Below, piece by piece: positions 1 to 18,649 of a stretch of 64,000 bases of DNA. The notes below the pieces were generated by a model that did no database searches, had not been told where the DNA came from, and worked only from the letters and a program-made list of their open reading frames with translations. This DNA comes from Nitrososphaeraceae archaeon (lineage in GTDB: Archaea; Thermoproteota; Nitrososphaeria; Nitrososphaerales; Nitrososphaeraceae), in the NCBI GenBank assembly GCA_021325295.1, contig JAJPHM010000031.1:62001-126000 (forward strand), written 5' to 3'. How positions within the stretch are numbered: position 1 is the stretch's first letter; the number at the start of each line of letters is the position of its first letter. The position numbers were made by a program, and so were the translations under genes.

Positions 1-2139
1 CATCCAATACTGAGTAGCGGGCTGAACAAGATCGTCTGACTGCTGTACGTTGAAAGTAATAGTTGGACTTCTTGTTCCATTGCTGCTGATAACGGTGCCG
101 GTCCAGGAGGTTTGGGGCATCGGAGAGAAGAGGATACCTAGGTGCTTTTCGTGAACCAGCAGCCAGACATAGTATTCATGGTTGTATAGATACGTCTTTG
201 ATGCTGAACTTGTAGCATTATAAGTTAATGATGATGTTGTATTGTAGGACTGGAACCTTTCAGTGGTGGATATCGTATCTGTGGCAGGAGTCACTACATT
301 TTGATTCTGGTCAGACCATACAACTGTAGCCGTAGAGCCAGATACGCTCTGTCCTGCCAGAGAGCCAAGTTGGGTTCTGGTTATCGGCAGGCTCTTGCTA
401 GAATCCAACCCTGAGAGGGTTATCGTGACGGCAAACTGGCCATATACTATGTAGCTTTGGGTAGAGCATGTCCCACTGCTACACGAAGTAAACGACTTGG
501 AAGTGGTTCCATCACCGAATCGATATCTAGAGTTAGCACCATCTGTTGGTGTCGCAACGGTAACGCTAGTTGTAGCATCGCATGTAAACGACTGGGTTGC
601 AGGATTGCCATTGTGATTATTATTGGTAGAGATACCCTGCAAATTGCAGCTTACAACAAAGTTAGAAGAGAATGGTGTCAGAGTACCAGAACCGGGGTTT
701 AGCTGGATTCTGACTGTAACGGCAGGAGTATATGTTACTGTAATGTTGGTATTTGCACTGGTAAAGTCAACCTTTACCTGATGGAGAGAAGAATCCCTAG
801 TTTCAGAGCTGAACATTATTCCAACTGCAAACCATCCTGCAGACAGTTCATTCATCAGGTCGGTATTGGCTTGGCTCCCTAAGGTTATCTGCTTTGGGCC
901 TGTTGTGGTGCAAGTATTGGAATTGCTGATGTAGGGTGTTCCATCGCCTATCTCTGTCCATAGCTGAGATTGGGACAGAACAACAGGATCAGAGCCACTC
1001 TGGACCATGGGCATATAGTTGCAGTTCTGGCCATTTGTCACAGAATTGACCTGCAACCCAAGCTTTACACTTGAAACAAGGGCCGTTGAAGGAATTCCAA
1101 GTGTGGTAACACGTACATCTGAACGAAAACAAGAGGCTGTGTTTGTGCTTATTGGAAGGCTTGCCACTATTGCCAAAGTGTTGTCTATAGTATTATCACC
1201 ATAAGGGCTGCCAGGACAACCTGCACCCGTGCCTGTCGTTGTCTGGTCATTTTCACTACTGCTTGGCTGGAGAATTGCAGTGTTTGGGTCCAGCTGAAAT
1301 GAACCCGTCCAGTTGCCATAGCTGAAAGACGCAGTGGTTTGCGAGCCTGCCTTTCTAATCGCCATTGAATTGAAGTTGCTCCATGCTGACTGCAGGCTTT
1401 CGTACAAAATGGGCAAGCCATTTTTGTAAAATGCTACCATGGTCTGAGAGCCTAGTTGGGCTTTGGTCATAACCTGAGTAGTATTTGATATGGAGGTGAC
1501 ACTTACCAGGGCGCCGTTTGCAAGACGATAAGAATCAAGTGGTATATTCCAGTTCTGCAAGACAGAATACATACCAGGTATCAGGGTTGAAAACCATACC
1601 TCATGCTTTAGTGGCTGACCCTCCCTGAAAATATACATTACAGTGAGAGTTCCTGCAAGGGTTGAGAAGGTCTGCGAAACGTTGGCATTATTTCCTGCCT
1701 GATTGATGGATATCGACTTAAAAGTACTGTTGACAGGAAGAGCACTATTGTATAGCTGCCACGTCTCTTTAACTGCCGTCAAGGTGCGGGTCATGTTGCT
1801 ATCAAGCAGGGTTGCCGAGCCATTCACAAACTTGACTGCAATAAGGCCTGACTGGATCGATATCGTACCATTGCCAAGATTGTTTATCACGATTGGTGCC
1901 CAAATATTATTTTTGGAATCAAAGGCCCACATTGGCAGGCCTAAGGTGGTCGCATGAGTTCCGTTTTCATAATCGGCTATCTGATAATTTGATTCCCTTG
2001 ATATGACTGGTTGATTTGATGCGGTTGTGCTGATAGAGAAAACAGTTGCAGCATCTGCTTCCTTGAAGAAAGGAATGATAGCAAATAGATTTGAAAATAG
2101 AACAAGGACCGTTATGACAAGCGAATACCAATTGGTCAT
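1..2139 (-). CDS. Large exported surface or virion-associated protein, C-terminus outside window
   Basis: An uninterrupted minus-strand frame runs from ATG at 2139 to the window edge (713 codons, no stop). The N-terminus has a hydrophobic segment at about residues 5-22 followed by a polar ending (FKEADAAT), typical of a signal peptide. The rest is rich in Ser, Thr, Asn and Gly with many N-glycosylation sequons (NGT, NST, NGS, NTT) and alternating beta-type patterns, including a PKD-like stretch near residue 550 (RYRFGDGTTSKSF) and scattered Cys. This fits an extracellular beta-rich glycoprotein such as an S-layer-like, adhesin or viral spike protein. No enzyme motif was recognised. It is the first gene of the element seen from the left and has its own promoter. 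Confidence 0.8.
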   Translation of the reverse strand, partial: MTNWYSLVITVLVLFSNLFAIIPFFKEADAATVFSISTTASNQPVISRESNYQIADYENGTHATTLGLPMWAFDSKNNIWAPIVINNLGNGTISIQSGLIAVKFVNGSATLLDSNMTRTLTAVKETWQLYNSALPVNSTFKSISINQAGNNANVSQTFSTLAGTLTVMYIFREGQPLKHEVWFSTLIPGMYSVLQNWNIPLDSYRLANGALVSVTSISNTTQVMTKAQLGSQTMVAFYKNGLPILYESLQSAWSNFNSMAIRKAGSQTTASFSYGNWTGSFQLDPNTAILQPSSSENDQTTTGTGAGCPGSPYGDNTIDNTLAIVASLPISTNTASCFRSDVRVTTLGIPSTALVSSVKLGLQVNSVTNGQNCNYMPMVQSGSDPVVLSQSQLWTEIGDGTPYISNSNTCTTTGPKQITLGSQANTDLMNELSAGWFAVGIMFSSETRDSSLHQVKVDFTSANTNITVTYTPAVTVRIQLNPGSGTLTPFSSNFVVSCNLQGISTNNNHNGNPATQSFTCDATTSVTVATPTDGANSRYRFGDGTTSKSFTSCSSGTCSTQSYIVYGQFAVTITLSGLDSSKSLPITRTQLGSLAGQSVSGSTATVVWSDQNQNVVTPATDTISTTERFQSYNTTSSLTYNATSSASKTYLYNHEYYVWLLVHEKHLGILFSPMPQTSWTGTVISSNGTRSPTITFNVQQSDDLVQPATQYWM

Positions 2140-2457
2140 TAAAATAAAATTAATTGCGTTTTAAATTTGCAGGATCCAATGACTCTATCAACTGCTCTGA
2201 AAGGTGTCCGATTCGGATACCTTATCTGTTAAGGTTCTTGCTTCAAAATATTCAAAAAGTATTTGCAAACTACATTTCTTTCAGGTTTTGGCTGAAAATA
2301 ATATGGTTGAATATCATCTGTTGCTGTCGACATTTTGAATGCAGGTGCTGACATAGACAATTTTTATCCTATGATCGTAGGAAATGTACATCTATCCAAA
2401 TAGATTTCTTCATTTTTTCTTAATGTACAAAACCCCCTTATCAAATTGCGAGTGATA
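2140..2457 (-). promoter_or_regulatory. Intergenic region with leaderless promoter for the exported protein
   Basis: This 318-bp AT-rich gap holds no convincing gene. On the minus strand a TATA-like element (TTTAAAAC, 2158-2165) lies 19-26 bases ahead of the ATG at 2139, the spacing expected for a leaderless archaeal transcript. The remainder (2170-2457) shows no clear structure. Short frames in it are not protein-like. Confidence 0.5.
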
Positions 2458-3816
2458 TTATAGTTGGAATCCTCGCAACCCTGCCGGAAATGAATTACTT
2501 GAATTCCTAGCGGTATAGATTTCATCAAGCTCAGTAGGGGTAATCCAGCTGTCAGTCGCACCATGTCTCATTAGAATGCCTTTATCTCTGAGATAATATG
2601 GTTTGTTATCTCCTTTGAATATTGATATGACAATTACTGTTTTGGTATCTGTCAATCCTTGGCCATCGAGTTCTACCTTCTGCAGCTTGAACTTTATCGT
2701 TGAAGGCTGAATATTGCTCAAAATTCTGCAAGTTATTTTGTCATGCAGTTCGCCAAGGTCATTTATCACTTGATATCCTCTTATCTGTCCATTCTTTTCA
2801 ACGCCAAGCAGTATCCTGCCTCCATTGGCATTTGCAAAGGCGACAAAAGTCTCAAGAAAATCGTTACCCTCTTCTCGTTTAAATTCTACATTTTCATTCT
2901 CTCCTCTCTTTATCAATTCAATTATTTCTGCAAGTGGCGACTCTACTTTCACGTCAGAAGAATAGTGGGACCAACCAAGGTGGATTTCTCTAGCATCCAA
3001 TAACTCATCATTTTCACCAAGTATAGCAACTGTAATGATGTCTGGCTCGAAGTCTGCTTGGCATTCTACCGACATTGACAAGTTGAAAGTTAAGTCTCCT
3101 GATTGATATGTTCGTCTCTCTTTTGCAAGATACATCTTTGCTACTATCTTGTCAGGAGAGGCAGTTTTAGTGTCAATTGTTAATGTGACCCTCTTACCCG
3201 ATATTACAATCTCAGATATCCGTGCTCTAAAATCAGGGATAACCATAATCAATTGGAAAAGATTGCTGCTGTGGTCAACTTTTGACGATAGCCTTAGAAA
3301 GTCGGTAATTGCAGTGTATAGATCGGGATATGTCGGGAGACCTTTCCTGGACAGTATTTGATAGCTTGTCCCAAAGCTAGGCGGCCTGCTCAAGGAGAAA
3401 TTCAGCAGGTTGGATGGCCAATCGTGACCACCATAACCATAATTTGACTTGCTAAATAACAGGGTAGAATTGGCATTTTCAGATATTTCTAGAATCACTC
3501 TATCCGGCAAGACTATCTTTCCAGTGCTTACCACTCCGCTCAAAATAAGCAAGAATGCGTCTATGGGAAGTATATATGAAGTCAATATCACATTCCCGTA
3601 ATCATATACTGCTGCATCTGGAAAACCAGTCTCGCTTCGATGAAACATCTCAACTTTGCCCATTACAGGAGTCATAGTATCCTGAATCATGGCAAATACA
3701 ATTCTAAAAAGAACAGCATTAGCATAGTCTGAGCGCCGGCTTATTATAAAATCAGATAGAGACTTGACAATATTGCCTGCAGGTCCATTGATATAATCTC
3801 GATACGATGATACCAT
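2458..3816 (-). CDS. Schlafen/AlbA_2-domain protein, putative nucleic-acid-binding regulator
   Basis: 452 residues. The C-terminal third (about 315-440) matches the AlbA_2 or Schlafen-core pattern: an ENVEFKRE strand, then FVAFANANGGRILLGV, then GYQVIND and a late RHGATDSWI segment. This family is found in regulators and in defence or mobile-element proteins and is linked to nucleic-acid binding. The N-terminal 300 residues are beta-rich and unrecognised. A TATA element (CTTATAAAG, 3839-3847) sits about 26 bases before the ATG at 3816, so the transcript is probably leaderless. The gene follows the exported-protein gene on the same strand with its own promoter. Its role in the element is unknown. 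Confidence 0.75.
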   Translation of the reverse strand: MVSSYRDYINGPAGNIVKSLSDFIISRRSDYANAVLFRIVFAMIQDTMTPVMGKVEMFHRSETGFPDAAVYDYGNVILTSYILPIDAFLLILSGVVSTGKIVLPDRVILEISENANSTLLFSKSNYGYGGHDWPSNLLNFSLSRPPSFGTSYQILSRKGLPTYPDLYTAITDFLRLSSKVDHSSNLFQLIMVIPDFRARISEIVISGKRVTLTIDTKTASPDKIVAKMYLAKERRTYQSGDLTFNLSMSVECQADFEPDIITVAILGENDELLDAREIHLGWSHYSSDVKVESPLAEIIELIKRGENENVEFKREEGNDFLETFVAFANANGGRILLGVEKNGQIRGYQVINDLGELHDKITCRILSNIQPSTIKFKLQKVELDGQGLTDTKTVIVISIFKGDNKPYYLRDKGILMRHGATDSWITPTELDEIYTARNSSNSFPAGLRGFQL

Positions 3817-4114: not shown

Positions 4115-4624
4115 TTATTGCTTTGCGGCTATCCTGTCTATTTCCAGATTTCTATCCATCAATGTTGAAAAGGCCTTCTTAGTCTCTGGAGTCCAGTAGC
4201 CTCTTTCATTTGCTCTTTTCTCCAGGGCGTCCATATTGACTTTATTTTCAAGAGATTCTTTTTTCAGCTCTTCCAGCTCCTGCGGAGATATCTTGTTTCT
4301 TTTCTTTGCCTCATCGCCTTTCTCTTCGGATGAAAAGTCGCATTGTTTCTTCTTCTCCTCCTCTTGTGCCGCCTGTCGTTCTTTTTCTGATGCTTCCTTG
4401 GCCTTCCCTTTGTCTTCTTCTTTATTCTTCTTTTCTACGACCTTTACTTCTGCCCTTCCCTCTTCTTTTTCCACAATATCCACTTCATTTTCGGATTTGG
4501 TAACCTGTTCAGCCACTGCCTTTTCAAATGCCTGTTTCTGTCTGTTCCCCATGTCCAGTACGGCACCTTTGCCTGAAGATAGGGGGTAGTGCTTGCCGTC
4601 TTTTCGAGTTCGAAATTGAGTCAT
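4115..4624 (-). CDS. Charged coiled-coil protein of unknown function
   Basis: 169 residues, extremely rich in Lys and Glu between residues 35 and 120, which predicts a long charged helix or coiled coil. The N-terminus (residues 1-28) and the C-terminal 45 residues are less biased and may be small folded or docking parts. An AT-rich element at 4638-4650 lies about 20 bases before the ATG at 4624 and could be its promoter. It lies just downstream of two unknown genes on the same strand. The long Ser-rich frames on the opposite strand are the mirror of the Lys/Glu repeats. A scaffold-like or virion role is conceivable from composition only. Confidence 0.6.
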   Translation of the reverse strand: MTQFRTRKDGKHYPLSSGKGAVLDMGNRQKQAFEKAVAEQVTKSENEVDIVEKEEGRAEVKVVEKKNKEEDKGKAKEASEKERQAAQEEEKKKQCDFSSEEKGDEAKKRNKISPQELEELKKESLENKVNMDALEKRANERGYWTPETKKAFSTLMDRNLEIDRIAAKQ

Positions 4625-4697: not shown

Positions 4698-5495
4698 CTA
4701 CAGTTTTAATCTCTGGGTTCGGCTTGATGGTCCTTCCATTTGCTTGTCTGGGGAATCGCCACTCCCAGGGAGTTTATTATCTGAATTTGGGGTAACACCC
4801 TGACTCTGGTTTGAACTTGAGTTGTTTGGGTTATATCCAGCTGCTTCCAGAGTTTGAGCTATTGTTTTTTCTATGCGGGTGCAGATAGGAGATATCTCCT
4901 CCCATCCTTTGTCATACATTTCAGTCCAGTACGAATATGGGATAGTATCTGTCTCATGGTACTTCAGGTTGGGGTCTGTAAAATCAATCATGGGCTTCAT
5001 TACCTGATAGGGAAATATTCCATTTGCAGTGACCTTGTACTCTGTTACCTTGTAGTGGAACCCTCCAATTCTGATAATATATTCTGCATCGTATCTGCCC
5101 CAGGCTTGCAAAAAGTTGATGGGCTTTCTGATAGTCACTATGCCTTTCTTCTGATCCACAGACTCGCCAGGAGAGAGGTGCTTCAGGGACAGCAGCCTGT
5201 CCTTTCGTGGTCCATGGTATACCTTGCGAAAGTCTTCTATCATCTCTTTTGGGATAGGAATGATATGCTGTGTGTCGACCTGTCCACCTTCCAGCTCGTA
5301 GTATCGCTTGCCAGTCTTTGGATCCAGCGTCACATAGTCTACCAAAGCATCCATTATGGGCAGAGCCCTGTAGTATTGCTTGACATCTCTATATGATTTG
5401 TAGCCTATAAGCTCCCTGCTTACTTCTTCCAAAAATGAAAGAGGATAGCGCATCAGTATAGATTTTTTGATATTTGAGACTTCTTCCTGGCTCAT
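4698..5495 (-). CDS. Element protein of unknown function, 265 residues
   Basis: Residues 1-215 are mixed alpha/beta with many aromatic residues. The last 50 residues form a polar low-complexity tail rich in Asn, Ser, Gln and Pro. The start overlaps the stop of the upstream 165-residue gene by four bases (ATGA), so the two are probably translationally coupled and act together. No known domain was recognised. Because this pair is divergent from a packaging-type ATPase gene, a structural or DNA-handling role is possible, but that is inference from position alone. Confidence 0.65.
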   Translation of the reverse strand: MSQEEVSNIKKSILMRYPLSFLEEVSRELIGYKSYRDVKQYYRALPIMDALVDYVTLDPKTGKRYYELEGGQVDTQHIIPIPKEMIEDFRKVYHGPRKDRLLSLKHLSPGESVDQKKGIVTIRKPINFLQAWGRYDAEYIIRIGGFHYKVTEYKVTANGIFPYQVMKPMIDFTDPNLKYHETDTIPYSYWTEMYDKGWEEISPICTRIEKTIAQTLEAAGYNPNNSSSNQSQGVTPNSDNKLPGSGDSPDKQMEGPSSRTQRLKL

Positions 5496-5986
5496 AGAGT
5501 AAAATTGTAATTGCCTTTTGGAGCTGAAAAGACATTGATAAGGTAGTCAGCGTTCCATGCCGAAATCTCCCAGCGATAGAGTGCATTTTTATGCATATAC
5601 ATCACGTCTTTTCTTCTAATACCAAGTGGGCGCTTGCCAATCAACCTAACCAAACCTTCGACTGTCTTCTTGTTGTCATCCTGGCTCTTTATGGCCAGAT
5701 ACCGGTACCCAAGGGAACCTAGTGCAATCTTGTCTATTGACAGGAAAAGCTTGTCCATCTTTTCTTTCAGGTCCTCTCTGATTAGATTGGTATCTTCAAC
5801 TTCAACGCTATACCTCTCATCTCCAGGTGATGGAGGAAGGCACTCTTTACACTCAAAGTAAAGACTGGTCCACCAGAGGGCAAGATAACGCAGATACAGC
5901 ATTGCTCTTGAGCGCATCAGCCTATAGCGAAAGTCTTCTTCTGACTCTTGTTCTGTGGATTTAGGATACGAAATAGAATCCATCAT
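5492..5986 (-). CDS. Element protein of unknown function, about 165 residues
   Basis: The frame is open from an ATG at 6049, but that start would overlap the divergent ATPase gene. The tandem ATG codons at 5986 and 5983 directly follow an AT-rich promoter-like stretch, so I place the start at 5986. The protein is helical at the N-terminus (residues 1-70, YRLMRSRAMLYLRYLALWW) and mixed after that. Its stop overlaps the start of the 265-residue gene. Function unknown. Confidence 0.6.
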   Translation of the reverse strand: MMDSISYPKSTEQESEEDFRYRLMRSRAMLYLRYLALWWTSLYFECKECLPPSPGDERYSVEVEDTNLIREDLKEKMDKLFLSIDKIALGSLGYRYLAIKSQDDNKKTVEGLVRLIGKRPLGIRRKDVMYMHKNALYRWEISAWNADYLINVFSAPKGNYNFTL

Positions 5987-6010: not shown

Positions 6011-7279
6011 GTGATCCAGGGAGGAAGCAAGCCGGTTATTCAACTCCATCCGTTCTATCCTGCCTATTTTTGTATTGGAAAAAAGGGTGCAGGCAAGTCA
6101 GCCTTGTTGGAAAGGATGCTTGAAGTGTATTATCAGGAGGGCTATCAGGTCATGGACATGAACTGTGCCGCCGATCTGGAATCATTGCACTGGTCAGTGC
6201 CGCATCCTGACAGGCCTTCTAGCAGCGGGTATCCCATCTTGGTTATCTTGCCGGCCAGCACGTCAATGCGGATTTTCCCAAGGACGTTGAAGCTTGCCGA
6301 TGGAAGGGAAGTTGAAGCGATAAAGACTATTTCTGACTCTACTTCCTTTGCCGAGATAATTCGAGAAGCACTCAAGGAGAAAAGAGTAATTGTCTTTTCA
6401 ATCCACCTGTATGATAGCGAGGCCAAGGGACAGCTAAAGTTCTCTCACTTTATCAAGGAATTCCCAAGGGTGGTGAGGGACCATATGCCTCGAGACCTGA
6501 AGTTTGCAATAGGCCTCCGAGAATTGTCAGACCTATCTTCAAACAGGATGCTTACCTTTTCTGGAGGAGGAGAACGTGAGAGCAAGCGAGGGCTCAATTA
6601 TTTCTCTAGAGTGGCCAGACATTCTAGGACGGTTTTAGTGCTGGACATGCAGGATCCTGACCAGGTGTATTCGGCCCTGACGGCACAGGAGGACTTTATT
6701 TTGGTAAAGAGGCTAAACAAGCACCATATACCAGAAAAGCTCAACTGGCTCAAGCAGGACATTGGCAATCAGATAGAATTTGCAAAACAGCACTATTTGA
6801 TGAGCAAGCTGCAGGCTGTTAGCCTTGATAGGTTGACAAATAATTCCTTCTACTGTGTCTGGCCAGATGGTGAGTATTCACTGGAACATAACTCCCAGCC
6901 GCAGGGGTTCAGACATCATGAATCAGACGATGACGCTTTGGCGCTGGCAGGTGTATCGCTGAAATTCCTGACAAAGCAGGAACTAGAGCAATCAGACCAG
7001 GGCAAAATAGAGTACCTGAAAAAGAAGCAGGCTGCCAAGGCCGAAAGGGAGCAGCAACTTGTCAACGCATATGAGATGTATCGACAAAGGAAGGCTGAAA
7101 ATATCGCCTATTCCTGGAATGATTGTGCCAAAGACTGCAAGTTCTTTGGAGCAGACGGCAAGCCAGCTGGAAATACGCTCCGGATTGCCATCAACAGATT
7201 GGGAGAACGCGGTGGAATCCCCAGCTACCATAAACTGGCAGAAAACGATTCCAAGGACCCTGCAGATCAGTCCTCCTGA
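6011..7279 (+). CDS. HerA/FtsK/A32-type P-loop ATPase (DNA packaging or translocation)
   Basis: 422 residues from a GTG start. The Walker A loop is GKKGAGKS at residues 23-30. A Walker B-like strand with an acidic end (KFAIGLREL) lies near residue 165. A Gln-containing strand after a conserved Arg (RHSRTVLVLDMQ) near residue 205 matches the sensor strand of HerA/FtsK superfamily ATPases, which includes viral A32-like packaging ATPases and conjugative pumps. The C-terminal 100 residues are Lys/Glu-rich, then a compact piece (about 370-410) that could be a winged-helix DNA-binding tail. It is divergently transcribed from two unknown genes. The likely role is to move element DNA, either into a particle or between cells. 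Confidence 0.7.
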   Translation: MIQGGSKPVIQLHPFYPAYFCIGKKGAGKSALLERMLEVYYQEGYQVMDMNCAADLESLHWSVPHPDRPSSSGYPILVILPASTSMRIFPRTLKLADGREVEAIKTISDSTSFAEIIREALKEKRVIVFSIHLYDSEAKGQLKFSHFIKEFPRVVRDHMPRDLKFAIGLRELSDLSSNRMLTFSGGGERESKRGLNYFSRVARHSRTVLVLDMQDPDQVYSALTAQEDFILVKRLNKHHIPEKLNWLKQDIGNQIEFAKQHYLMSKLQAVSLDRLTNNSFYCVWPDGEYSLEHNSQPQGFRHHESDDDALALAGVSLKFLTKQELEQSDQGKIEYLKKKQAAKAEREQQLVNAYEMYRQRKAENIAYSWNDCAKDCKFFGADGKPAGNTLRIAINRLGERGGIPSYHKLAENDSKDPADQSS

Positions 7280-7536: not shown

Positions 7537-7923
7537 TTATGGCAGGCTTACATTGAATAGCTTTTTTAGTTTCTTGATGTGGCTTGGTTCTATTTGCGCA
7601 ATGGGCACTTTTTCTGTTACCAGATTGTATGCATCATAAAAGTCCATGTTGTATTTCTTTACCAGCACTCCTATGGCTATTGCATTGCTTCTGCTCTGTC
7701 CAGCTCCGCAGCATATCACTATTTTCTTATGCCGGTCAAGACATGATATGGCATAGTCTATCTTTTGCTTGTAGATCTCGACGGGTTGGCTTTCGTCTAA
7801 CATGTCCCTGACATCTACTATCCAAAAGTCAGTATTGTTGAGTGGGCCTTCCTGCAGGACGGTTTGCGGATACATATCCTGTCCCAGGCCATGAGTAGCC
7901 AGATTGTCTGTAATTTTGAACAT
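7537..7923 (-). CDS. Dual-specificity-like protein (Cys) phosphatase
   Basis: 128 residues, a minimal Cys-phosphatase. The signature CGAGQSRS is the C-x5-R-S/T P-loop of dual-specificity and tyrosine phosphatases, with nucleophile Cys72 and Arg78. An upstream Asp-containing loop (VDVRD, residues 36-40) is where the general-acid region is expected. These enzymes remove phosphate from Ser, Thr or Tyr, or from nucleotides or RNA 5' ends in some relatives. It is the last gene of a leftward operon led by a small DNA-binding-like protein. A phosphatase on a mobile element suggests interference with host phosphosignalling or RNA ends, but the substrate cannot be told. Confidence 0.75.
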   Translation of the reverse strand: MFKITDNLATHGLGQDMYPQTVLQEGPLNNTDFWIVDVRDMLDESQPVEIYKQKIDYAISCLDRHKKIVICCGAGQSRSNAIAIGVLVKKYNMDFYDAYNLVTEKVPIAQIEPSHIKKLKKLFNVSLP

Positions 7924-7953
7924 GACCGTGCAGCTGCCGTCAAAAATGCAAAG

Positions 7954-8232
7954 TTAGGGAAAGCGAAAGCTTTCCGGTATGCCATACACGGCCTGTACAT
8001 AGTTGGCCTTGGCATATCCCCATAGCTCGCTAATCACTTGCTCGACAGCCTTGTCACTTATCTCCACTTCAACCAAGACAGGCTCTCGTTGCTTTGCTAT
8101 TGATACCTCCAATCCTTTCAGGTCGACCTTGGAAGTATCTACCAGATTCGTTACATCCCAGCTGTCCATCTTTGCCGCCAAAAATTGCAGCTTGCCGTCA
8201 CTTGTTTTTCGTACCTCAGCTATCGTTTTCAT
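7954..8232 (-). CDS. Small element protein of unknown function, 92 residues
   Basis: Mixed beta/alpha, acidic and basic residues balanced, no Cys. A Shine-Dalgarno-like GAGAGG lies about 10 bases before the ATG at 8232. It sits between the frameshifted gene and the phosphatase gene, same strand, in one probable operon. No family recognised. Confidence 0.6.
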   Translation of the reverse strand: MKTIAEVRKTSDGKLQFLAAKMDSWDVTNLVDTSKVDLKGLEVSIAKQREPVLVEVEISDKAVEQVISELWGYAKANYVQAVYGIPESFRFP

Positions 8233-8280
8233 TCTTGTTTTCCTCTCAAATAGAGCAATAGAAATAGTGGAGGTGGTATA

Positions 8281-8653
8281 TTAGGTTGCTTGGTAGGCCG
8301 AGCGGTCCTGATGCTGTTTCGCTTGCTTCAGAAATGCTTCAATATAGCCTTGGTCATCGTGAGCTATCTCGCTGAGCCTTTCGTCATCGATTCCCAATTT
8401 CTTTTTCATTTTGTATAATCTGCATTCACCTAAGCTGCCAGGTAATGCGGAACTATTTCCTGGATCGAGGTACATAAAGAACCATGTTAGTATCTCTGAG
8501 TTTAGACCATAATCGAAAGAACCGCCATACCATTCTTTCAATGTGGGTTTCCAGAATTCATAGAGCTTGCGTGGTAGGACAAGTTTGACATTAATCCCAA
8601 CATGCTCACCAAGCTCGCCATTGTATTTGACAGGTGGTTTTTGGAGTTGTCAT
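8281..8653 (-). pseudogene. Small DNA-binding-like protein gene with apparent one-base frameshift
   Basis: A start ATG at 8653 overlaps the stop of the upstream gene (ATGA). Its frame hits a stop after 15 codons. The neighbouring frame is open and protein-like from directly after the upstream stop down to TAA/TAG near 8281, but has no ATG or GTG. Removing one A from the A5 run (T5 on the plus strand, 8638-8642) joins MTTPK to PPVKYNGELG and gives a continuous protein of about 123 residues. The restored N-terminal half contains VGINVKLVLPRKLYEFWKP, which resembles the VTIRLTVPKQLWRKYKR strand-helix of the gene at 9214-9456, hinting at a shared ribbon-helix-helix-like fold. It may be a pseudogene, a sequencing error or a programmed slip at the A run. 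If the frame is intact only from TTG at 8541, the product is 86 residues. Confidence 0.6.
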
Positions 8654-9198: not shown

Positions 9199-9213
9199 CA
9201 ATCTCACCTCCAT

Positions 9214-9741: not shown

Positions 9742-9753
9742 GAGGTAAGTTCA

Positions 9754-10278: not shown

Positions 10279-10358
10279 ATTGGTATCAATCAAAAGACCC
10301 CGGGATGCCATTGGAAGGGTATCATTGTCATCTACATAGTCACATACAATTTTGATTT

Positions 10359-10550
10359 ATGGAACCAATCGTGTTTGAATGTGAAAGCAAGGTATTCAGA
10401 GCTACCAAGAAAAGCCTTAGCCTTCGTACCACAATCCCAGAAGACATTGTTCAGTTTTTGAAGTTGCAGGCAGGATCTAAGGTAAAGTGGATAGCATACA
10501 TAAGGGAAGGCACTGTTACTGTCATTATCAAGAAAAAGACAGAATCCTAA
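10359..10550 (+). CDS. AbrB-like transcription regulator
   Basis: 63 residues with a clear AbrB/SpoVT fold pattern: SLSLRTTIPEDIVQFLKLQAGSKVKW, then a final strand TVTVIIKKK. It is probably leaderless, starting at the ATG within TTTATGGAACC, with an AT-rich stretch upstream. It lies after the Zn-finger gene and before the candidate origin region. Likely dimeric DNA-binding regulator of element genes. Confidence 0.7.
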   Translation: MEPIVFECESKVFRATKKSLSLRTTIPEDIVQFLKLQAGSKVKWIAYIREGTVTVIIKKKTES

Positions 10551-10751
10551 ACTTCATAGTCATTTGAATATGACTATGCAAATGCACAATAAAGCAAGAA
10601 ACCCCATGATTGATAGTGAACTCTTGTCACGAGCGTCACGAGCTTTTTACGTACCCTTAGATTTTTTTGGAGTGCTTGTAGAAAATAAAAATAAGGAGAG
10701 ATTTAAAAATAAAAAAAGGAGTAGGGACTTTTGCTCGTGACACCCGTGACA
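10551..10751. repeat. Convergent intergenic region with inverted repeats around an A-rich tract; candidate origin
   Basis: GTCACGAGC is repeated twice head to tail at 10626-10643. An inverted copy of the pair (16 of 18 bases) lies at 10733-10750. Between them is a purine/A-rich stretch (about 10665-10725) that would melt easily. A separate perfect palindrome with arms CATAGTCAT and ATGACTATG covers 10555-10578 and may be a terminator or binding site. The region lies directly beside the primase-helicase stop codon, a usual place for a plasmid or viral origin. No gene is seen in it. Confidence 0.5.
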
Positions 10752-13043
10752 TTATGAATATTGATTCATGTTTGTTTGGGAAGTATCCTTTATTCTGACG
10801 CCAACATAGACATGATACCTGCCTCCGTCCTTACGCCTTCTTTGCCTATTTTCTATACCTAAATCAGCCAATTTGGCACCCAGCGCGTTAGGCTTAAGTG
10901 GGTTGATTTGTTTCTCTGCAGTACTCTTGTTCTTACAATAATCTGTATAGATATCATAGAATTCCTTGGTTTCAACCTCACCTTCAACATCTTTGATAAA
11001 ACACTCTTGAAGGACAGCTGCAACATGATTTTCTAGCTTCAAATACTGAGCTTTTACCTCCTGCCATGATTCCAAAGCATATTCTGGATCTTCTTTCAAC
11101 TTTCTGAATCCATCCAGAGCTAAGTTGAGCAGACCAGATAGTTCATTTGGAGTCTGCAATTTTGAATCCAAGTCCTTATCGGCCTCTTCTTCGCTGAAAA
11201 CCCTCTCAAACATTATCAAAACAAGACGTCTCATTGTAGAAAACGAGTTGTCAGGTGGCGGAAGCTTGTTGAAAGAAAAGGCAAGCTTGGCACCGTTAAC
11301 AAAATGAAATATTGGTAAGCCTTTATGCTCAGCAGCAATAAGGTCACCACCACTCAATGACCTTATTATCGCCCAGTTCTCAATATCATCTGCACTTACG
11401 TCACCTGCAAAGTTGAGTATTTTTCCATAAAGCTGTGCTCTCGCAAATCGCTCATCTGCAAGTGACTGTAATGTAACCGCACTGAAATTGTCAGGGCCTA
11501 CAAATGCCCTCAAAAGTCGACCAAGGGTGCCTTTTCCATTTCGCCCTGATCCGACGAGAAAGTACAGAGACTGATATCTATAGTCTCGTGTAAGAATATC
11601 ACCCAACAGTCTCTTTACTTTATCTTGATTTTTCTCGTCTAGTGATGTTCCCAGAAACGTCTCAACAGCTGGACAGACTGCTTCTAGGTCAAAATTTACT
11701 GGCAACTGCACTATCGATAGATATTCTGGGTCATGTGGATTCAGCTTACCAGCTTGAATATCAAGTAGCCCATTTTTCACATTGAGAATATATGAATTGG
11801 AATCAAATTCCGACCTATTTGCGGGAGTAGTCCTCCTGATCATCTCAATAACTTCGTTTACAACTGCAGTCCGGGCTCTCGCCCAGAGTTTTGGACATTC
11901 TATTTCGATAATTCTCTCACCATTTGATAGATACTTGCCATCTTGGTAATAGTAAATCTCACGTGTATCATTCATAGTTCTGAAAACATATTCCTTCTTT
12001 ATCGTCTCTGCAAGCTCAAACGCCAAGTCGTTATTATCTACGAGTGACTTGTGGGATAGAATCCGAGAATATGTAGTTTGGATAATTTTTCTTGCAGTGG
12101 ATTCCCCGGCTATACCAGATATGATGGATAATAATCCCTTGTACCCCATGACCACCTGTTTCTGTTTCTTATACGTCTCTTCCAATGCAATGAATCGAGA
12201 TTGCTTTTCCTCATCCTCTTTTGTTAGCCTCAAAAAAAGCTCCTTTGCAGATTCAAGAGTGACATCATTTTTTAGCAGGAAGCCCGCTAGATATAGGCAG
12301 ATAACATTGCGATAGCACTGTTTATAGTGCTCTTTTAACAATTCACAGATTGTATCGATATCAGGATCCGTTAGCCCTACCTCATTTGTAGAGAGTGAAT
12401 TCAGTTGACTGCCTTTCTGAGAAGTTTTTGGCTTCAGACAATCACTCAGTAGTTTGATAAGAGAATTGTAAAGCCCATCTGCCACCATTATTTTATTCTG
12501 ACCGATGTTCTGATACTCAAAATCCGGATATTCTCTATGCCTAGAAGGTGGCAAGGAACAGAGGCCGCTGGTCTTGTCAGTTTTGATCTCAAATTCCTTC
12601 CCATATATGCAATCTTTAACCTTAATTGGAGGATTTGGCTCATGGGAGAACCAGTAAATATGATATCCAAAGGACTTTTTTGTTTTTGTAACAAATGTCA
12701 TTTCTCGTGATTTGTCTATTAACGAATATCTTGCGCCATTGTCAGGGTCTGCCAAATTAACCAGAATCCTAAAGACATCCTGACTATCGATATCTAAGCA
12801 ATTGAGAAATAGGTTGGTTCCATGTTCATCCTTAAAGTGAGTCTTACCGAAGCAAGTTGCAACGTTATAGAATCCAAAGAGCCTTTTTGCAAGCTCTTCC
12901 ATATCCCAGCTATTCTCATATATTGAACTCCAGGAAATTACCGGAGTTTTCGCATCGTTCCTCAATGGCACAACTTTGAAGCCGATTTTGAACAACTCCA
13001 CCACGGTGGCAGGCTTGACCATTCTTTCTGCAGCTGATGTCAT
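10752..13043 (-). CDS. PrimPol-D5 (SF3) primase-helicase, element replication protein
   Basis: 763 residues. The N-terminal part (about 10-200) resembles the bifunctional primase-polymerase domain: a CLDIDSQD strand with two acidic residues (Asp84, Asp86), GYHIYW near 126-131 and the LPPSRHR loop near 164-170. Residues 350-620 form a D5/P4-type helicase: Walker A GSGRNGKGT (498-506), a Walker B strand KILNFAGDVS and a sensor Asn in FSFNKLPPP (about 592). A winged-helix tail follows. It primes and unwinds element DNA. The start overlaps the stop of the AbrB-like gene upstream (ATGA), making it the last and largest gene of the long leftward operon. Confidence 0.85.
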   Translation of the reverse strand: MTSAAERMVKPATVVELFKIGFKVVPLRNDAKTPVISWSSIYENSWDMEELAKRLFGFYNVATCFGKTHFKDEHGTNLFLNCLDIDSQDVFRILVNLADPDNGARYSLIDKSREMTFVTKTKKSFGYHIYWFSHEPNPPIKVKDCIYGKEFEIKTDKTSGLCSLPPSRHREYPDFEYQNIGQNKIMVADGLYNSLIKLLSDCLKPKTSQKGSQLNSLSTNEVGLTDPDIDTICELLKEHYKQCYRNVICLYLAGFLLKNDVTLESAKELFLRLTKEDEEKQSRFIALEETYKKQKQVVMGYKGLLSIISGIAGESTARKIIQTTYSRILSHKSLVDNNDLAFELAETIKKEYVFRTMNDTREIYYYQDGKYLSNGERIIEIECPKLWARARTAVVNEVIEMIRRTTPANRSEFDSNSYILNVKNGLLDIQAGKLNPHDPEYLSIVQLPVNFDLEAVCPAVETFLGTSLDEKNQDKVKRLLGDILTRDYRYQSLYFLVGSGRNGKGTLGRLLRAFVGPDNFSAVTLQSLADERFARAQLYGKILNFAGDVSADDIENWAIIRSLSGGDLIAAEHKGLPIFHFVNGAKLAFSFNKLPPPDNSFSTMRRLVLIMFERVFSEEEADKDLDSKLQTPNELSGLLNLALDGFRKLKEDPEYALESWQEVKAQYLKLENHVAAVLQECFIKDVEGEVETKEFYDIYTDYCKNKSTAEKQINPLKPNALGAKLADLGIENRQRRRKDGGRYHVYVGVRIKDTSQTNMNQYS

Positions 13044-13276
13044 GCTTCAGCTCTCCTTGGATAGAACGTTATTACGAGAGAGTTGCCCTCTAGCCTCTGC
13101 TCTGTATAATATTGGTCAGCCACCAGGCCAAGGCGGTCGCTAATTTCGGGTGCTAAATGCACAGCGAGATTCTTTCTATGGTAAAAGACTGTGCGCGGCC
13201 ATTTCCTGTAGCGCCGCTTCTTTGGTTGATAGGTGGCATTAACGTTTTTATCTAAACTCTGTATAATCTCAGACAT
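13040..13276 (-). CDS. AbrB-like small protein coupled to the primase-helicase
   Basis: 78 residues. Residues 25-74 show the AbrB-like pattern (RTVFYHRKNLAVHLAPEISD, then a strand NSLVITFYP). Residues 10-30 are strongly basic. A Shine-Dalgarno GGAGG precedes the ATG at 13276, and the stop overlaps the start of the primase gene, so synthesis of the two is coupled. It could regulate replication. Confidence 0.55.
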   Translation of the reverse strand: MSEIIQSLDKNVNATYQPKKRRYRKWPRTVFYHRKNLAVHLAPEISDRLGLVADQYYTEQRLEGNSLVITFYPRRAEA

Positions 13277-13432: not shown

Positions 13433-13717
13433 TTACAAACAAGCACTATCTTCCTCCAAGTTTGTCGTGGAATTTTCCAAAGGCGGGAGGATTAGCGCTT
13501 CGTAATACTCATGGTACATCTTACCATGCATTACATTCATCCAATAATGAAATTCTTGATGGCCGAACTTTTCTGCTACCTTTACCAAATCTATCCAGCA
13601 ACCGACTGGATTGTTGGAGAAATCCCAAGCTAGATCATAGGCTGTATGCTGACAGATTTTACACATTTCTGAAAGCAATTCAAAGTCAATGTCAAAGATG
13701 GTTGGTACTATTCCCAT
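13433..13717 (-). CDS. Small helical element protein of unknown function, 94 residues
   Basis: Acidic, probably all-helical, with Cys20 and Cys23 (CKIC) and His/Trp-rich segments (FGHQEFHYWMNVMHGKMYHEYYEAL). A GAGGT Shine-Dalgarno lies about four bases before the ATG at 13717. No family recognised. It is in the middle of the leftward replication operon. Confidence 0.5.
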   Translation of the reverse strand: MGIVPTIFDIDFELLSEMCKICQHTAYDLAWDFSNNPVGCWIDLVKVAEKFGHQEFHYWMNVMHGKMYHEYYEALILPPLENSTTNLEEDSACL

Positions 13718-13819: not shown

Positions 13820-13945
13820 CTACATGATGTCTACTAGCAGTTTCATTCGGATTTCCTTCGGTCGAAGTTTCATGTATTGAAGCAGCATCTCATGATATTC
13901 CCAACAAATGGAATCCGGAAGTTTGAATCCTGGTGGATAGGTCAT
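13820..13945 (-). CDS. 41-residue protein coupled to the zinc-ribbon gene
   Basis: The ATG at 13945 overlaps the stop of the upstream 229-residue gene (ATGA), and the stop TAG is at 13820-13822. The peptide has a Pro-rich start then a basic amphipathic helix (LLQYMKLRPKEIRMKLL). Too short for family assignment. The four-base overlap supports translation. Confidence 0.4.
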   Translation of the reverse strand: MTYPPGFKLPDSICWEYHEMLLQYMKLRPKEIRMKLLVDIM

Positions 13946-14631
13946 ATCGAGCCCTCCACTTGAGATTTCTGTCGCTGTATTTCCTTGATGTATTTCCCCT
14001 TGGTATCCTCTCGAAGTTTTTCTCGCCAGGTTGTGAGTTCTTTGATTACAATGCTCTTTTCATGTATCGTAAGTGAGTCGTACAGGTTATCAAGTATCAC
14101 TTTCAATACAACAACATGGAGAAATGCGCCTGTGTTAGAATTGAATGCACTTCTTAAAGGGTTCCCTAATTCCATTTTTTTGCGATATGGAAGATGGAGC
14201 ATTCGGCAGTATCGATGGAGAAAAATGTTGGCTTGCCTGAAGGTCTCGTCTTTTGTGAAATCAACATGGACTTTGTAAGGCCCATGCACACTCTCAACTC
14301 CTTCCTCAATCCAAGTATTTCGCGACCCAACCTGTCCTGCAGTATATCCGTCTTGTAGAATTCCATATTTTGCAAGCTTAGCAGCCAAGCCTTTACTGCT
14401 ATCGGATATCCATTCCATTTGAGTACCGTTTTTTGTTATGAGGCTTGGGTCTGAATCAGAAGAGTTGAGAAGTAATTCTCTATTGGCATCATTATTTATT
14501 TCAAACTTGAGGTTCTCAGTCTCTGTCTTGTCAATAATGCCGCACTTTGAGCAGCTAACCTCATGTTGTTCATAGTCACGCTTGAGAATGTGCATGCCGT
14601 TTGGATCTTGTCTGCATTTTTCGACTATCAT
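13942..14631 (-). CDS. Zinc-ribbon protein, possibly TFIIB N-terminal-like
   Basis: 229 residues. Near the N-terminus, EVSCSKCGIIDKTE (about 24-37) is the second half of a TFIIB-type zinc ribbon. The first half is degenerate (one Cys at residue 6 and a His near 13 in place of the usual CxxC). The C-terminal 110 residues are helical (ETFRQANIFLHRYCRML and later segments) but I cannot see a convincing cyclin repeat. It might recruit RNA polymerase to element genes, or be another zinc protein. It overlaps ParB's stop by four bases and is coupled to the 41-residue gene downstream. Confidence 0.45.
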   Translation of the reverse strand: MIVEKCRQDPNGMHILKRDYEQHEVSCSKCGIIDKTETENLKFEINNDANRELLLNSSDSDPSLITKNGTQMEWISDSSKGLAAKLAKYGILQDGYTAGQVGSRNTWIEEGVESVHGPYKVHVDFTKDETFRQANIFLHRYCRMLHLPYRKKMELGNPLRSAFNSNTGAFLHVVVLKVILDNLYDSLTIHEKSIVIKELTTWREKLREDTKGKYIKEIQRQKSQVEGSI

Positions 14632-15485
14632 TTTGCTATAGCTTCACCTTCTGTTGCTTTTGCTTCAGCTCTGATTCTCAATAATTCCTTAGTCGGATCA
14701 TCTGAAGTATTGACATAAACGGGGATCAGTAGTGCACACCTAGGACAGGGAATACTAGTATCAGTAAGTTTGCCCGCAATCATTGCTTGCTCTTCTGATT
14801 CAGAAAGGTCGCTGAAACGAACTTTCCATCTAGAATTATCATCTATTGATGATGGAACAGAAGAGGCAATGTCTGTTTTGACATCTGCTTTAACTTGCGC
14901 TGCCAATTTATCTGCTTCAATTTGCTTTACTGCTGCGCTCACAGACTTCTTCTTTTGCATAACAGCCTCAAGCAGCGGTCCATATTTTTCAGGATTCTCA
15001 CTGACAGCTGTAACGAGCTTGACCTCTTTTCGTAAAGTATCTTTCTTGACACCTAGTGCCTGCTCTGCGACAGAATAAGTTGAACCCCTTGGAAAGGTGT
15101 CTGTTTCAGACGCCTTCTCTAACTCGTCTTTACTAGGTCGATGTCCAATTCTTGTAGCCTGGATAGCTTGAATGATTGCAACTCTTTCGGTAAGCGTGTA
15201 TTCCTTTCGATGTGCATTTTCGTCAAATTCAGCCTGCAGTGGATTTGCAAGCTCAACAACATGCACAGGTACTTCTTTGAGTCCTAATTTAGTAGCACAA
15301 GCGAAGCGCCTTCCACCGCAAACCAACAGGTATCGAGAGGGACCTTTTCTGACTACTACAAGAGGTTCGAGTATGCCAAGCTCATTTATTGATGCGATTA
15401 AACCAGTGAGGTCTCCCGGGTCTTTTCGATACCGCTCTCCAACCTCAACTTGATCTAGCGGAACAATTGAAATTACAGACGTCAA
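14628..15485 (-). CDS. parB: ParB-like partition/DNA-binding protein
   Basis: 285 residues from a TTG start at 15485. The start is fixed by the Shine-Dalgarno GGGAGGAGG (minus strand, 15496-15504) ten bases upstream. The ParB/Srx N-terminal domain is clear: VEVGERYRKD, SINELGILEPLVVV, CGGRRFACATKLG, VPVHVVE (residues 12-79). A helix-turn-helix region follows (YSVAEQALGVKKDTLRKEV). The C-terminal part has a CPRC pair near residue 248 that may bind zinc. ParB proteins bind centromere-like sites and help segregate plasmids; some act in transcription. No ParA partner gene is visible. Confidence 0.8.
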   Translation of the reverse strand: MTSVISIVPLDQVEVGERYRKDPGDLTGLIASINELGILEPLVVVRKGPSRYLLVCGGRRFACATKLGLKEVPVHVVELANPLQAEFDENAHRKEYTLTERVAIIQAIQATRIGHRPSKDELEKASETDTFPRGSTYSVAEQALGVKKDTLRKEVKLVTAVSENPEKYGPLLEAVMQKKKSVSAAVKQIEADKLAAQVKADVKTDIASSVPSSIDDNSRWKVRFSDLSESEEQAMIAGKLTDTSIPCPRCALLIPVYVNTSDDPTKELLRIRAEAKATEGEAIAK

Positions 15486-15568: not shown

Positions 15569-15585
15569 ATAGGGTCACACCTCGT

Positions 15586-15638: not shown

Positions 15639-15642
15639 GGTT

Positions 15643-15819: not shown

Positions 15820-15829
15820 GCATTACCGC

Positions 15830-16070: not shown

Positions 16071-17138
16071 ATGCAAGCATTGGTGACTATCAAGTCTATT
16101 ATCAAAGGGGATCGTGCAGATGCAAGAATTTGTAAGTGGATATTAAGTGGCAACATCGACGATAAAGAGTTTCTTGAAAAGGGTTTTATCATCACTGAAA
16201 TCGGCAATTGGCTAGTTGATCATTATCCGCCTTATGTGGAAGAAAAACAAAGTAAGATATCTAAAAGCTACCTTCTCCATAGACATCGCAAGCAGATTGA
16301 ACATATGGTAGAGTTACTTGTCAAACTGGGTCTTCTTGAACGTGCTGGAACCAGAGTGGCCCTGAAAACTAAGGAAAAGATTCCAGCGTACAAAATCACA
16401 TCGAATGGAATGTTTTTAATTTATCTGATAAGAGCGCTCAGTACATCTGAAAAAGGACGCTCAATGAGTTATGTCGAGAGATGTCTAGAACTAATAAAAA
16501 ATCAGATAATGCAAAGCCCATCTCCCGTGTCACTTTACTTTGTGGCATTCTTGAGACAAATTGTGGAAGATGACCTAAAGATGTCGATTCTAAAAACAAT
16601 GTTTTATTTTCTCAAATCAGGGCTCGTTGTGCTAGATGAATCATTTAGTCTTTTAGATTTTTTTTCACAGATACAATATGCTACTGGATTCATGCAACCT
16701 GCGAGTTTGCAGGAAAAGGCGAAAATCGGGTTTAGTTCACTCACAACTCCAATCCAAGAAAGTATACTATATTGTGTAAAACTAGATTTTGAGCGCAGGA
16801 TTTCTGAAGCGCTTCCGGGCCTAGAGTGGGAGCAATTGCGGTATGAACACAGAAACGAACTAGTTGTCGTTACAATTGCTATTTGTGAAAAATGTCATTT
16901 GCAAACTTTTATCGGGAGACAAGCTGCATACTATCTTTTTGAATACCGAAAATTCGAGAAAAAGGATTATCTTGAGGCCTGTCCAAAATGCAAAGAAAGA
17001 GCATTGCGAATTTATGCGGTTTGGAATCATGATCTAACTACTCGCTATACAAGACACCTGCAACATAATACACCACATATTATAGGTGGACTACAGGAAT
17101 TGATCGGAGAGTTTGAAAGTGAAAGGTCAACTCCATGA
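16071..17138 (+). CDS. Putative DNA-binding protein with C-terminal zinc ribbon
   Basis: 355 residues. Residues 60-130 contain a winged-helix-like pattern (HRKQIEHMVELLVKLGLLERAG, then a short wing and YKITSNGMFLIYLI). The C-terminal part has CEKC near 278-281 and CPKC near 310-313, together a zinc ribbon. It is divergent from the replication operon across a 64-base promoter, a usual place for a regulator of that operon. A 36-residue frame overlaps its stop. Confidence 0.6.
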   Translation: MQALVTIKSIIKGDRADARICKWILSGNIDDKEFLEKGFIITEIGNWLVDHYPPYVEEKQSKISKSYLLHRHRKQIEHMVELLVKLGLLERAGTRVALKTKEKIPAYKITSNGMFLIYLIRALSTSEKGRSMSYVERCLELIKNQIMQSPSPVSLYFVAFLRQIVEDDLKMSILKTMFYFLKSGLVVLDESFSLLDFFSQIQYATGFMQPASLQEKAKIGFSSLTTPIQESILYCVKLDFERRISEALPGLEWEQLRYEHRNELVVVTIAICEKCHLQTFIGRQAAYYLFEYRKFEKKDYLEACPKCKERALRIYAVWNHDLTTRYTRHLQHNTPHIIGGLQELIGEFESERSTP

Positions 17139-17245
17139 ATAATCCATTCGATAGTTTGTTCCTAATGCTTCTTTTATCACACGTTTCAGGCCTCACAGGA
17201 AATCCCGAAAAGATTTGGGCAAGATTCAACCCTACAATTTACTGA
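17135..17245 (+). CDS. Possible 36-residue coupled peptide
   Basis: The ATG at 17135 overlaps the TGA of the 355-residue gene. The frame ends at 17243-17245, 14 bases into the convergent integrase gene. It has a short hydrophobic run (LFLMLLLSHVSG). Only phase and overlap support it. Confidence 0.3.
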   Translation: MNNPFDSLFLMLLLSHVSGLTGNPEKIWARFNPTIY

Positions 17246-18587
17246 AATCGACTTTCTTGCTTAACTCAAGTAGCTTCTGTTCCACAATAGTTTCCACTTC
17301 CTTCTTTTGCCTCTCCATAATCTCGGAATGAGCCTGGTTTGTCAGAGGGAATTTACATCTTGGATTGAGGCAGTACTGAGCATCCGGCTTGTTCGGTTCA
17401 GAGCAGTTCGGACATGGCTTTAATTTAATAGAATTTTCATACTTTTCTTTTGGCTTGATTATTCCATATGCTTCCAGCAGCGAAATGCTAGACTCGTTAC
17501 CAAAATAATGGATGTATCGTGCAGGCATTTTGCTATCCATCGACCAGCCAGAATATTGCCTCAGTACATGCTCTTTCAATATCTTCGACTTGTTGGTAAG
17601 GCCTGTATGTCTGAAAATGTAAGGGGCCCACGGCTTGGTTAGCATGCTTCTAATCAGAGCCTTGTCTGCAGGAGGTACTTCCTTATCGTCCTTTTTGAGC
17701 AGCTGGGGAAAGAATGAGTCTCTATACTGTTCTCTAAAGTGCTTGCCCAGCGCATCCTCTGTAAGGCGTTGGCCGTAAACCTGATCAGCAAGCGACACAA
17801 AAATGAAAGCATTTGGATTGTCGCCATCAGGATGGCCTCCCTGAAGCCATTCCTTCAGGTATGGCAGAGACCATATGAGTGGCAGCCGTCGGTTAGTTGT
17901 CTTACCAGACACGTCAATGTAGGCATACTTTGTTCCATCACTTGCGGAGTCATATGAAATTTGATGGATCCTTCTGCGCAAAATCTCGTGCGGTCTTGCT
18001 GAAGTGTCCAGGGCAACCATCGCCACATATGCTCTGTCACGTTTGTTCTGACAGTATTTCAAAAAACAGGCTATTTCTTGGTCGGTCCAGATATCGCCAG
18101 GTCCGTAAGCGCTGACCTCTTTTCTTGGCAGTGGACGAATATTTACACAGTCGGGTGTTTCTCTTAGTTTGGCGTTAGGTTCGTCAGGATTGTAGAGCCA
18201 TCTGAAGAATTTGCTAAAAACCATGAGTCTGTTATTATAAGTACCAATCCAGCGGTGTTTTCCATCATCTTCTTCGCTTTTTCTGAGAGTATTGAGATAT
18301 ATGATAATATCCTGCTTTGTCATGCTCTTGAATGATTTGTGATGAAGCTCCCGGGAAAGCCAGTAAAGGATTTTCAACTGCCATTCCTTGGTTGAATTTT
18401 TGATATTAAATTCCACTTGTTCAGCATCAAAAAAATCACAGAGTATCTTGGCATTGGCAGGGTTTGCCTCTAAAAGTTCAATGAACATGTTACGAAAATA
18501 TGGCCTTGAAAGTCCGTCAGTCAGCTTTACAATTCTGATTCTAAGGTTGGCAGTGGAAATCAGCTGTTTTTGCTTGAGTCTGGCCAT
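17232..18587 (-). CDS. int: Tyrosine recombinase (integrase) of the element
   Basis: 451 residues. A core-binding domain (about 35-140) precedes the catalytic domain with Arg198 (DTSARPHEILRR), Lys229, Arg326-His327 (PYIFRHTGLT), Trp348 and nucleophile Tyr358 (ARYIHYF). Position 323 is Tyr where most family members have the first His of the H-x-x-R box. A C-terminal zinc ribbon follows (Cys392, Cys395, Cys406, Cys411) and a coiled coil (420-445). A TATA box (minus TTTATAAAG, near 18617-18626) lies upstream. It sits immediately beside the 3' end of tRNA-Ser, the expected layout for integration into a tRNA gene. It catalyses insertion and excision of the element. Confidence 0.9.
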   Translation of the reverse strand: MARLKQKQLISTANLRIRIVKLTDGLSRPYFRNMFIELLEANPANAKILCDFFDAEQVEFNIKNSTKEWQLKILYWLSRELHHKSFKSMTKQDIIIYLNTLRKSEEDDGKHRWIGTYNNRLMVFSKFFRWLYNPDEPNAKLRETPDCVNIRPLPRKEVSAYGPGDIWTDQEIACFLKYCQNKRDRAYVAMVALDTSARPHEILRRRIHQISYDSASDGTKYAYIDVSGKTTNRRLPLIWSLPYLKEWLQGGHPDGDNPNAFIFVSLADQVYGQRLTEDALGKHFREQYRDSFFPQLLKKDDKEVPPADKALIRSMLTKPWAPYIFRHTGLTNKSKILKEHVLRQYSGWSMDSKMPARYIHYFGNESSISLLEAYGIIKPKEKYENSIKLKPCPNCSEPNKPDAQYCLNPRCKFPLTNQAHSEIMERQKKEVETIVEQKLLELSKKVDFSKL

Positions 18588-18649
18588 CTGAATAGGCAGC
18601 TATTGCCTTGAGTTGTTTATAAAGAGATGGCTACACTACACGAGACGTG

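Follow-up and report, generated by a model that had tools for sequence, protein, structure and literature searches.

A plasmid-like integrated element at a tRNA-Ser gene of an ammonia-oxidising archaeon, with a putative replication origin behind its PrimPol gene

What is the block of genes that ends at a tRNA-Ser gene in an ammonia-oxidising archaeon of the Nitrososphaeria, where are its two ends, and from which site could it replicate? Mobile elements of ammonia-oxidising archaea are mostly cryptic, and no replication origin has been described for them in the literature that we searched. The DNA analysed here (the window) is a stretch of 64,000 nucleotides from a Nitrososphaeraceae archaeon, positions 62001-126000 of contig JAJPHM010000031.1 (C14); the source genome (G000) has a size of 2.69 Mb and a completeness of 99.7%. 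Positions are those of the window unless C14 is given. A preliminary description of the window had placed an integrative element at 1-18649 and had considered that its combination of genes matched no element type. As judged from the sequences of its ends, integrase and target, the element is real, is integrative and is inserted at tRNA-Ser. Moreover, it possesses a cis-acting, origin-like site behind its PrimPol gene, which is the new result of this analysis.

The gene for a tyrosine-recombinase integrase with a C-terminal Cys motif (17232-18587, minus strand; assigned by family search and by its relatives) adjoins the 3' end of an intron-containing tRNA-Ser (approximately 18650-18775, minus strand). 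Because neither ARAGORN nor Rfam gave a call for this tRNA, its identity rests on reading of the sequence and on orthologous copies in other genomes, which adjoin the same flanking gene. When the genome was searched with the tRNA region, the 19-bp attachment-site core at the tRNA-Ser 3' end, GCGCCGGGAGTGGGACTCG (18649-18667), was found in a second, exact copy on the integrase side of the tRNA at C14:54818-54836, which corresponds to window position -7182 or so. As a control for chance, 300 random 180-nt queries were compared with the same 42 kb on the left: exact matches extended to 15 bp at most, and none of the 300 queries reached 19 bp. Therefore, the element is approximately 25.83 kb long, starts 7.2 kb to the left of the window and ends on the right at the tRNA-Ser 3' end. 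Thus, the second tRNA-Ser 3' repeat, which the preliminary description had expected further to the left, is present, and the extent of 1-18649 was too short. In a genome of another genus (G007), the orthologous tRNA-Ser harbours a 14.8-kb element (L093:2846-17641), the ends of which are marked by a 21-bp repeat that contains the same core; the integrase of this element is 46-47% identical to that of the 25.8-kb element. The right flank of the target is kept in six genomes of another genus, in which no such integrase adjoins it, and the tRNA is present in both of the loci that were read. Just inside both attachment cores, a short sequence, CACGAGACG (18639-18647), and its inverse (L004:14849-14857) were observed; these are possible arm sites of the integrase.

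The putative replication origin (10625-10751) lies directly 3' of the PrimPol stop codon. Read away from this stop codon on the minus strand, it consists of TGTCACGGG TGTCACGAG C, an A+T-rich spacer of 89 bp, and GCTCGTGAC GCTCGTGACA. In other words, two tandem 9-mers (TGTCACGRG) face two inverted ones across a spacer with a G+C content of approximately 31%. The folding of this strand was better than that of all 200 of 200 shuffled sequences (z = -4.0). The same inverted-repeat layout is found behind other thaumarchaeal PrimPol genes, and the repeat sequences vary. The loci were compared by a fixed measure, namely the longest inverted arms with a spacer of 50-140 bp between -40 and +330 from the stop codon, and 222 genes were used as controls. 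In the discovery set, the arms behind 19 PrimPol loci were longer than those behind the controls (p = 2e-7): arms of at least 10 were present in 11 of the 19 loci and in 17 of the 222 controls, and TGTC was present in the left arm in 8 and 2 of them, respectively. The excess was reproduced, less strongly, in two fresh sets. Ten fresh loci from the host family, Nitrososphaeraceae, gave p = 0.025 for the arms by the same measure, and two of them possessed TGTC (p = 0.0096). For 25 fresh loci from Nitrosopumilaceae, the arms gave p = 0.013 and TGTC in the discovery orientation was present in one locus (p = 0.27). When the second orientation was admitted after inspection, TGTC or GACA was found in an arm of 6 of these 25 loci, compared with 5 of the 222 controls (p = 0.0002). 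A 9-bp period, measured as a lag-9 excess, was detected in the fresh host-family loci with arms of at least 8 (n = 6, p = 0.016); it was not clear in Nitrosopumilaceae (p = 0.11) or in the controls (p = 0.06). Because the numbers of repeats on the two sides can be unequal (for example, one clear copy on one side and five on the other in L034), protein-binding repeats are favoured over a simple stem. In the plasmid pRN1, a stem-loop of approximately 100 bp at the same position is needed for replication and is kept in layout, not in sequence (PMC4234260). We propose that 10625-10751 is probably the replication origin of the element, placed as in pRN1. A short, recognisable site behind PrimPol makes the origin question directly testable. 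Furthermore, the site and the PrimPol operon together suggest a minimal replicon for shuttle vectors in ammonia-oxidising archaea.

The PrimPol-D5 replication protein (763 amino acids, superfamily 3 (SF3) type; 10752-13043; primase_Cterm, E = 1e-55) belongs to a run of replication and partition genes on the minus strand. The start of the PrimPol gene overlaps by 4 nt the gene for a 78-residue protein (13040-13276), which is positionally like orf56 of pRN1. The run further contains a hypothetical gene of 94 codons (13433-13717), the gene for a 229-residue Zn-ribbon protein (13942-14631) and parB (14628-15485; Pfam ParB_N, 1e-10; TIGR00180, 3.5e-14, just under its cut-off). The Zn-ribbon gene begins within the last 4 nt of parB. 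This gene is therefore downstream of parB, an order reversed relative to that in thaumarchaeal integrative-conjugative elements, in which a TFIIB homologue is coupled to parB, and its product matches the Pfam TFIIB zinc-binding family only at E = 0.097.

Of 70 host-family genomes, 53 encode relatives of the integrase, with identities of up to 56%. Convergent with the integrase gene is that of a 355-residue protein (16071-17138, plus strand) without a Pfam match, which on position and reading is a putative winged-helix regulator. A gene occupies the same position in the elements of L055, L056, L091 and L093, and the integrase, the convergent gene and PrimPol are combined in elements of four genomes (G007, G041, G119 and G176), in which the cargo differs. 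In G007, for example, the cargo includes IetAS, SIR2, Fic and Panacea-like genes. In the 25.8-kb element, a DprA-like gene that overlaps a phosphoribosyltransferase (PRTase) gene to the left of the window matches the anti-phage defence pair ShosTA (PADLOC: ShosA, 3.4e-74; ShosT, 1.1e-20). The same part encodes a GNAT protein, a Zn-ribbon protein, an acylphosphatase-domain protein and a 151-residue Panacea/DarG-like protein. ShosTA and the GNAT, acylphosphatase and Panacea/DarG-like genes, together with the Zn-ribbon gene that overlaps parB and the repeats behind PrimPol, go beyond the preliminary description. A Schlafen/AlbA_2-domain protein (2458-3816, minus strand; Pfam SLFN_AlbA_2, E = 1e-18) is a probable defence gene of the cargo; its homologue in G049 (L088:2337-3674; 5.9e-136) adjoins AbiEii-like and type I restriction-modification genes. 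Taken together, these comparisons show a defence hotspot across genera: a single integration site with a common attachment core hosts defence cargo that can be exchanged. Because copies of the dual-specificity phosphatase gene (7537-7923, minus strand; Pfam DSPc, 1e-9) exist elsewhere in the genome (70% DNA identity of 7537-7924 to G000:C22:10607-10994) and in G086 (74%), this gene is probably host-derived cargo.

An FtsK/HerA-type ATPase of 422 amino acids (6011-7279, plus strand) was assigned from remote homologues and a low-confidence fold model. Its relatives are all remote: they were found in Nitrosopumilus elements (phmmer, 6e-14), in a contig of a metagenome-assembled genome (L057) and in a 34-kb IMG/VR contig (L101). 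A D5-type helicase is near the related ATPase in two of the Nitrosopumilus loci that were read, L050 and L052. Scans of IMG/VR with the ATPase alone, the 265-residue protein described below and PrimPol gave no relatives, and phage records gave no match to the ATPase. The fold model has a predicted local distance difference test score (pLDDT) of 54, and A32-like, Haloarcula virus PH1 and Corticoviridae ATPases are among its neighbours in a viral library. No PDB match reached E <= 0.001; the coupling protein TcpA was listed at a probability of 0.99 and E = 0.004. Because many G-protein chains dominated this list, the PDB search supports only the P-loop fold. The model thus supports a divergent FtsK/HerA-type motor and would fit packaging, conjugation and segregation alike. 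Two related loci were observed that deserve mention in their own right. In a Nitrosopumilaceae element on a 56-kb contig (G126:C6; L053 and L109), a related ATPase gene is followed by that for a 1243-residue protein and by many further genes for exported or membrane-anchored proteins; the element resembles a virus or plasmid of a kind not yet described. In L101 (IMGVR_UViG_3300028581_000007), the related ATPase has a C-terminal helix-turn-helix match and is accompanied by a second FtsK-like gene.

Divergent from the ATPase gene, on the minus strand, are genes for a protein of approximately 164 residues (5492-5986; 185 residues from an upstream start at 6049), for a 265-residue protein (4698-5495) and for a highly charged, low-complexity protein of 169 residues (4115-4624). 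The preliminary description had suggested that the genes divergent from the ATPase were a structural module. We obtained no positive evidence for this idea, and it is unsupported rather than refuted. None of the three proteins matches a Pfam or PHROGs family or has a relative, the genes bear no relation to those beside the related ATPases, and the model of the 265-residue protein (pLDDT 34) is uninformative. In 400 genomes of the class, no convincing homologue of the divergent genes was found, and the ATPase and the 185- and 265-residue proteins lack a close relative among the genomes searched. Identical gene order in many genomes without an integrase, which would mark the block as chromosomal, was accordingly not seen. 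One weak match, between the 185-residue protein and a Cdc6-like gene in G177 (E = 5e-4 in the 400 genomes), was rejected as chance on reading of the locus. The large exported protein of the preliminary description is present, but the window shows only part of it: the gene is cut by the window edge (1-2139, minus strand, on to C14:61014), and 713 N-terminal residues of 1041 are encoded in the window. Its strong hydrophobic segments lie at residues 7 and 1014. No other long open reading frame has such segments at both ends, and the product is predicted to be an exported, C-terminally anchored surface protein. It has no Pfam match (a PKD-like stretch was noted on reading) and only weak local matches in the genomes searched.

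The rest of the gene set that had been described (tyrosine recombinase, PrimPol-D5, ParB, P-loop ATPase and dual-specificity phosphatase) was confirmed. Likewise, no capsid, relaxase or conjugation family was recognised by Pfam in 27 element proteins, and PHROGs gave no virus signature for the main candidates. In these same searches, terminase, portal and HK97 capsid had no match, and Pfam found no VirB4, VirD4, VirB6 or TadC-type family in the 27 proteins. A scan for hydrophobic segments found no small spindle-type capsid protein with two such segments. Among 300 genomes of the order, there was no CRISPR-spacer-like match to the part of the element in the window.

To which class does such an element belong? 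The cryptic integrated elements of Thaumarchaeota have a tyrosine integrase, range from 2.6 to 98 kb and in some cases encode a fused PrimPol-S3H (Krupovic et al. 2019, PMC6563490). In the same survey, attachment sites are short (median 17 bp over all classes) and tRNA 3' targets include intron-containing tRNAs. Our element resembles them in its integrase, its direct repeats at a defined tRNA target and its lack of recognised virus or conjugation signature genes, and differs in the ATPase, 265-residue and exported-protein genes without close relatives, the ParB operon and the ShosTA cargo. The statement that it matches no element type therefore did not hold: it fits this published class, and its integrase/PrimPol platform recurs in relatives. 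As in pRN1-family plasmids of Sulfolobales, a small gene precedes PrimPol-SF3, and paired arms and a spacer lie directly 3' of it with the layout kept and the sequence not. Unlike in pRN1, each arm is built of tandem 9-bp repeats, the number of which differs between the two sides in some relatives, and the element integrates and is larger. Satellites such as P4 and the Staphylococcus aureus pathogenicity islands (SaPIs) share a primase-helicase replicon, a tRNA integrase and defence cargo with it; SaPIs have a repeat-flanked, A+T-rich origin. In contrast to these satellites, the element has ParB, an FtsK/HerA motor and an archaeal host, and no packaging-hijack genes were recognised. Finally, it shares a ParB-containing operon, an integrase and, in some cases, PrimPol with thaumarchaeal integrative-conjugative elements, whereas no family of a conjugation apparatus was found in it.

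We consider it likely that the element is an integrative, plasmid-like member of the thaumarchaeal cryptic integrated elements that works as follows. The integrase would excise it by recombination of the two 19-bp cores. PrimPol-D5, made with the small upstream protein, would assemble on the inverted 9-bp repeats behind its own gene, melt the A+T-rich spacer between them and then prime replication. The ParB operon would keep copies in the population, and the defence cargo (ShosTA, Schlafen/AlbA_2 and Panacea/DarG-like) would repay the host. In the least certain step, DNA transfer or segregation would be the task of the FtsK/HerA-type motor, to which the exported protein might contribute. Several points weigh against this explanation. 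Excision and replication are steps that we infer from sequence. Because the DNA to the left of tRNA-Ser differs among relatives, an empty site is not directly readable. Arms are shorter than 10 in 8 of the 19 discovery loci and 7 of the 10 fresh host-family loci; thus, the structure is not universal or is missed by the criterion. TGTC was chosen after the discovery set had been viewed and is mostly in the opposite orientation in Nitrosopumilaceae, and the p-values are optimistic because PrimPol loci are related. As for transfer, the scan for hydrophobic segments found no membrane segment in the motor, which has no recognised partner.

If the motor instead belonged to a minimal conjugative element, double-stranded DNA would be moved by one FtsK-like protein, as by TraB of actinomycetes, or the element would be the remnant of a thaumarchaeal integrative-conjugative element. 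The tRNA integrase, PrimPol, the motor, the lack of a recognised relaxase and the position of TcpA among the PDB fold neighbours, in spite of its E-value, are consistent with this, and thaumarchaeal conjugative elements typically have a ParB operon (PMC6563490). Nevertheless, we regard it as unlikely: VirB4, VirD4 and VirB6 are missing from the Pfam results, clustered 8-bp repeats of the clt kind were looked for and none was found, the motor lacks a membrane segment, and the Zn-ribbon gene is downstream of parB and not convincingly TFIIB. A fixed chromosomal island, no longer mobile, would explain why the element is not seen in relatives and why a phosphatase copy lies elsewhere in the genome; intact open reading frames, identical cores and an intact replication site make this quite unlikely.

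Two further explanations require virus particles. The 164/185-, 265- and 169-residue proteins and the exported protein might be capsid components too divergent to be recognised, with the ATPase packaging the DNA of a provirus. The viral fold neighbours of the motor model (A32-like, Haloarcula virus PH1 and Corticoviridae) and the related ATPases in L101 and in the exported-protein-rich Nitrosopumilus element (L053, L109) point in this direction, and the lengths of approximately 164-185 and 265 residues for two proteins encoded beside an ATPase come close to those of single-jelly-roll capsid pairs. Such a provirus is very unlikely, however, given the pLDDT of 54 and the PDB search without a hit at E <= 0.001, ATPase neighbours that have no PHROGs match or capsid family and are unrelated to those of related ATPases, an ATPase only remotely A32-like, the lack of a small spindle-type protein with two transmembrane segments, and ParB, cargo and a small size that fit a plasmid. 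Similarly low is the probability of a self-replicating satellite of a tailed virus, of the P4 or phage-inducible chromosomal island (PICI) kind, that uses the particles of its helper. An integrase, a regulator, a P4-family primase-helicase and defence cargo without recognised capsid genes would be expected of it, and DprA-PRTase pairs are known from a P2-phage defence hotspot, which was studied beside that of P4 (PMC9122126). Moreover, the same genome has a tailed provirus (G000:C18:1-20000, L110) with matches for tape measure, neck and tail; its integrase shares 44% identity with that of the element, and this provirus is a possible helper. However, no DNA is common to this provirus and the part of the element in the window (which matches the genome elsewhere only at the phosphatase copy on C22), no capsid-redirecting gene was recognised, and ParB and the motor are unexpected in a satellite. 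A more speculative idea is that the motor, the 164/185-, 265- and 169-residue proteins and the 1041-residue anchored exported protein are an undescribed DNA-transfer module, by particle or by direct transfer of double-stranded DNA, on a standard integrase/PrimPol platform; this is tentative and, on balance, doubtful.

Upstream of the phosphatase gene and on the same strand are four small hypothetical genes (92, 86, 187 and 80 codons; 7954-9456, minus strand). Three small genes on the plus strand (9541-10550) encode proteins of 66 residues, of 174 residues with a Cys/His motif and of 63 residues, the last an AbrB/MazE-like regulator by family search. Between these divergent genes, a 15-bp inverted repeat, TATAGGTCTAACCAT / ATAGTTAGACCTATA (9476-9521), is operator-like. 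Outside the element, a further tRNA gene at 53720-53809 matches Rfam without an ARAGORN call and probably contains an intron.

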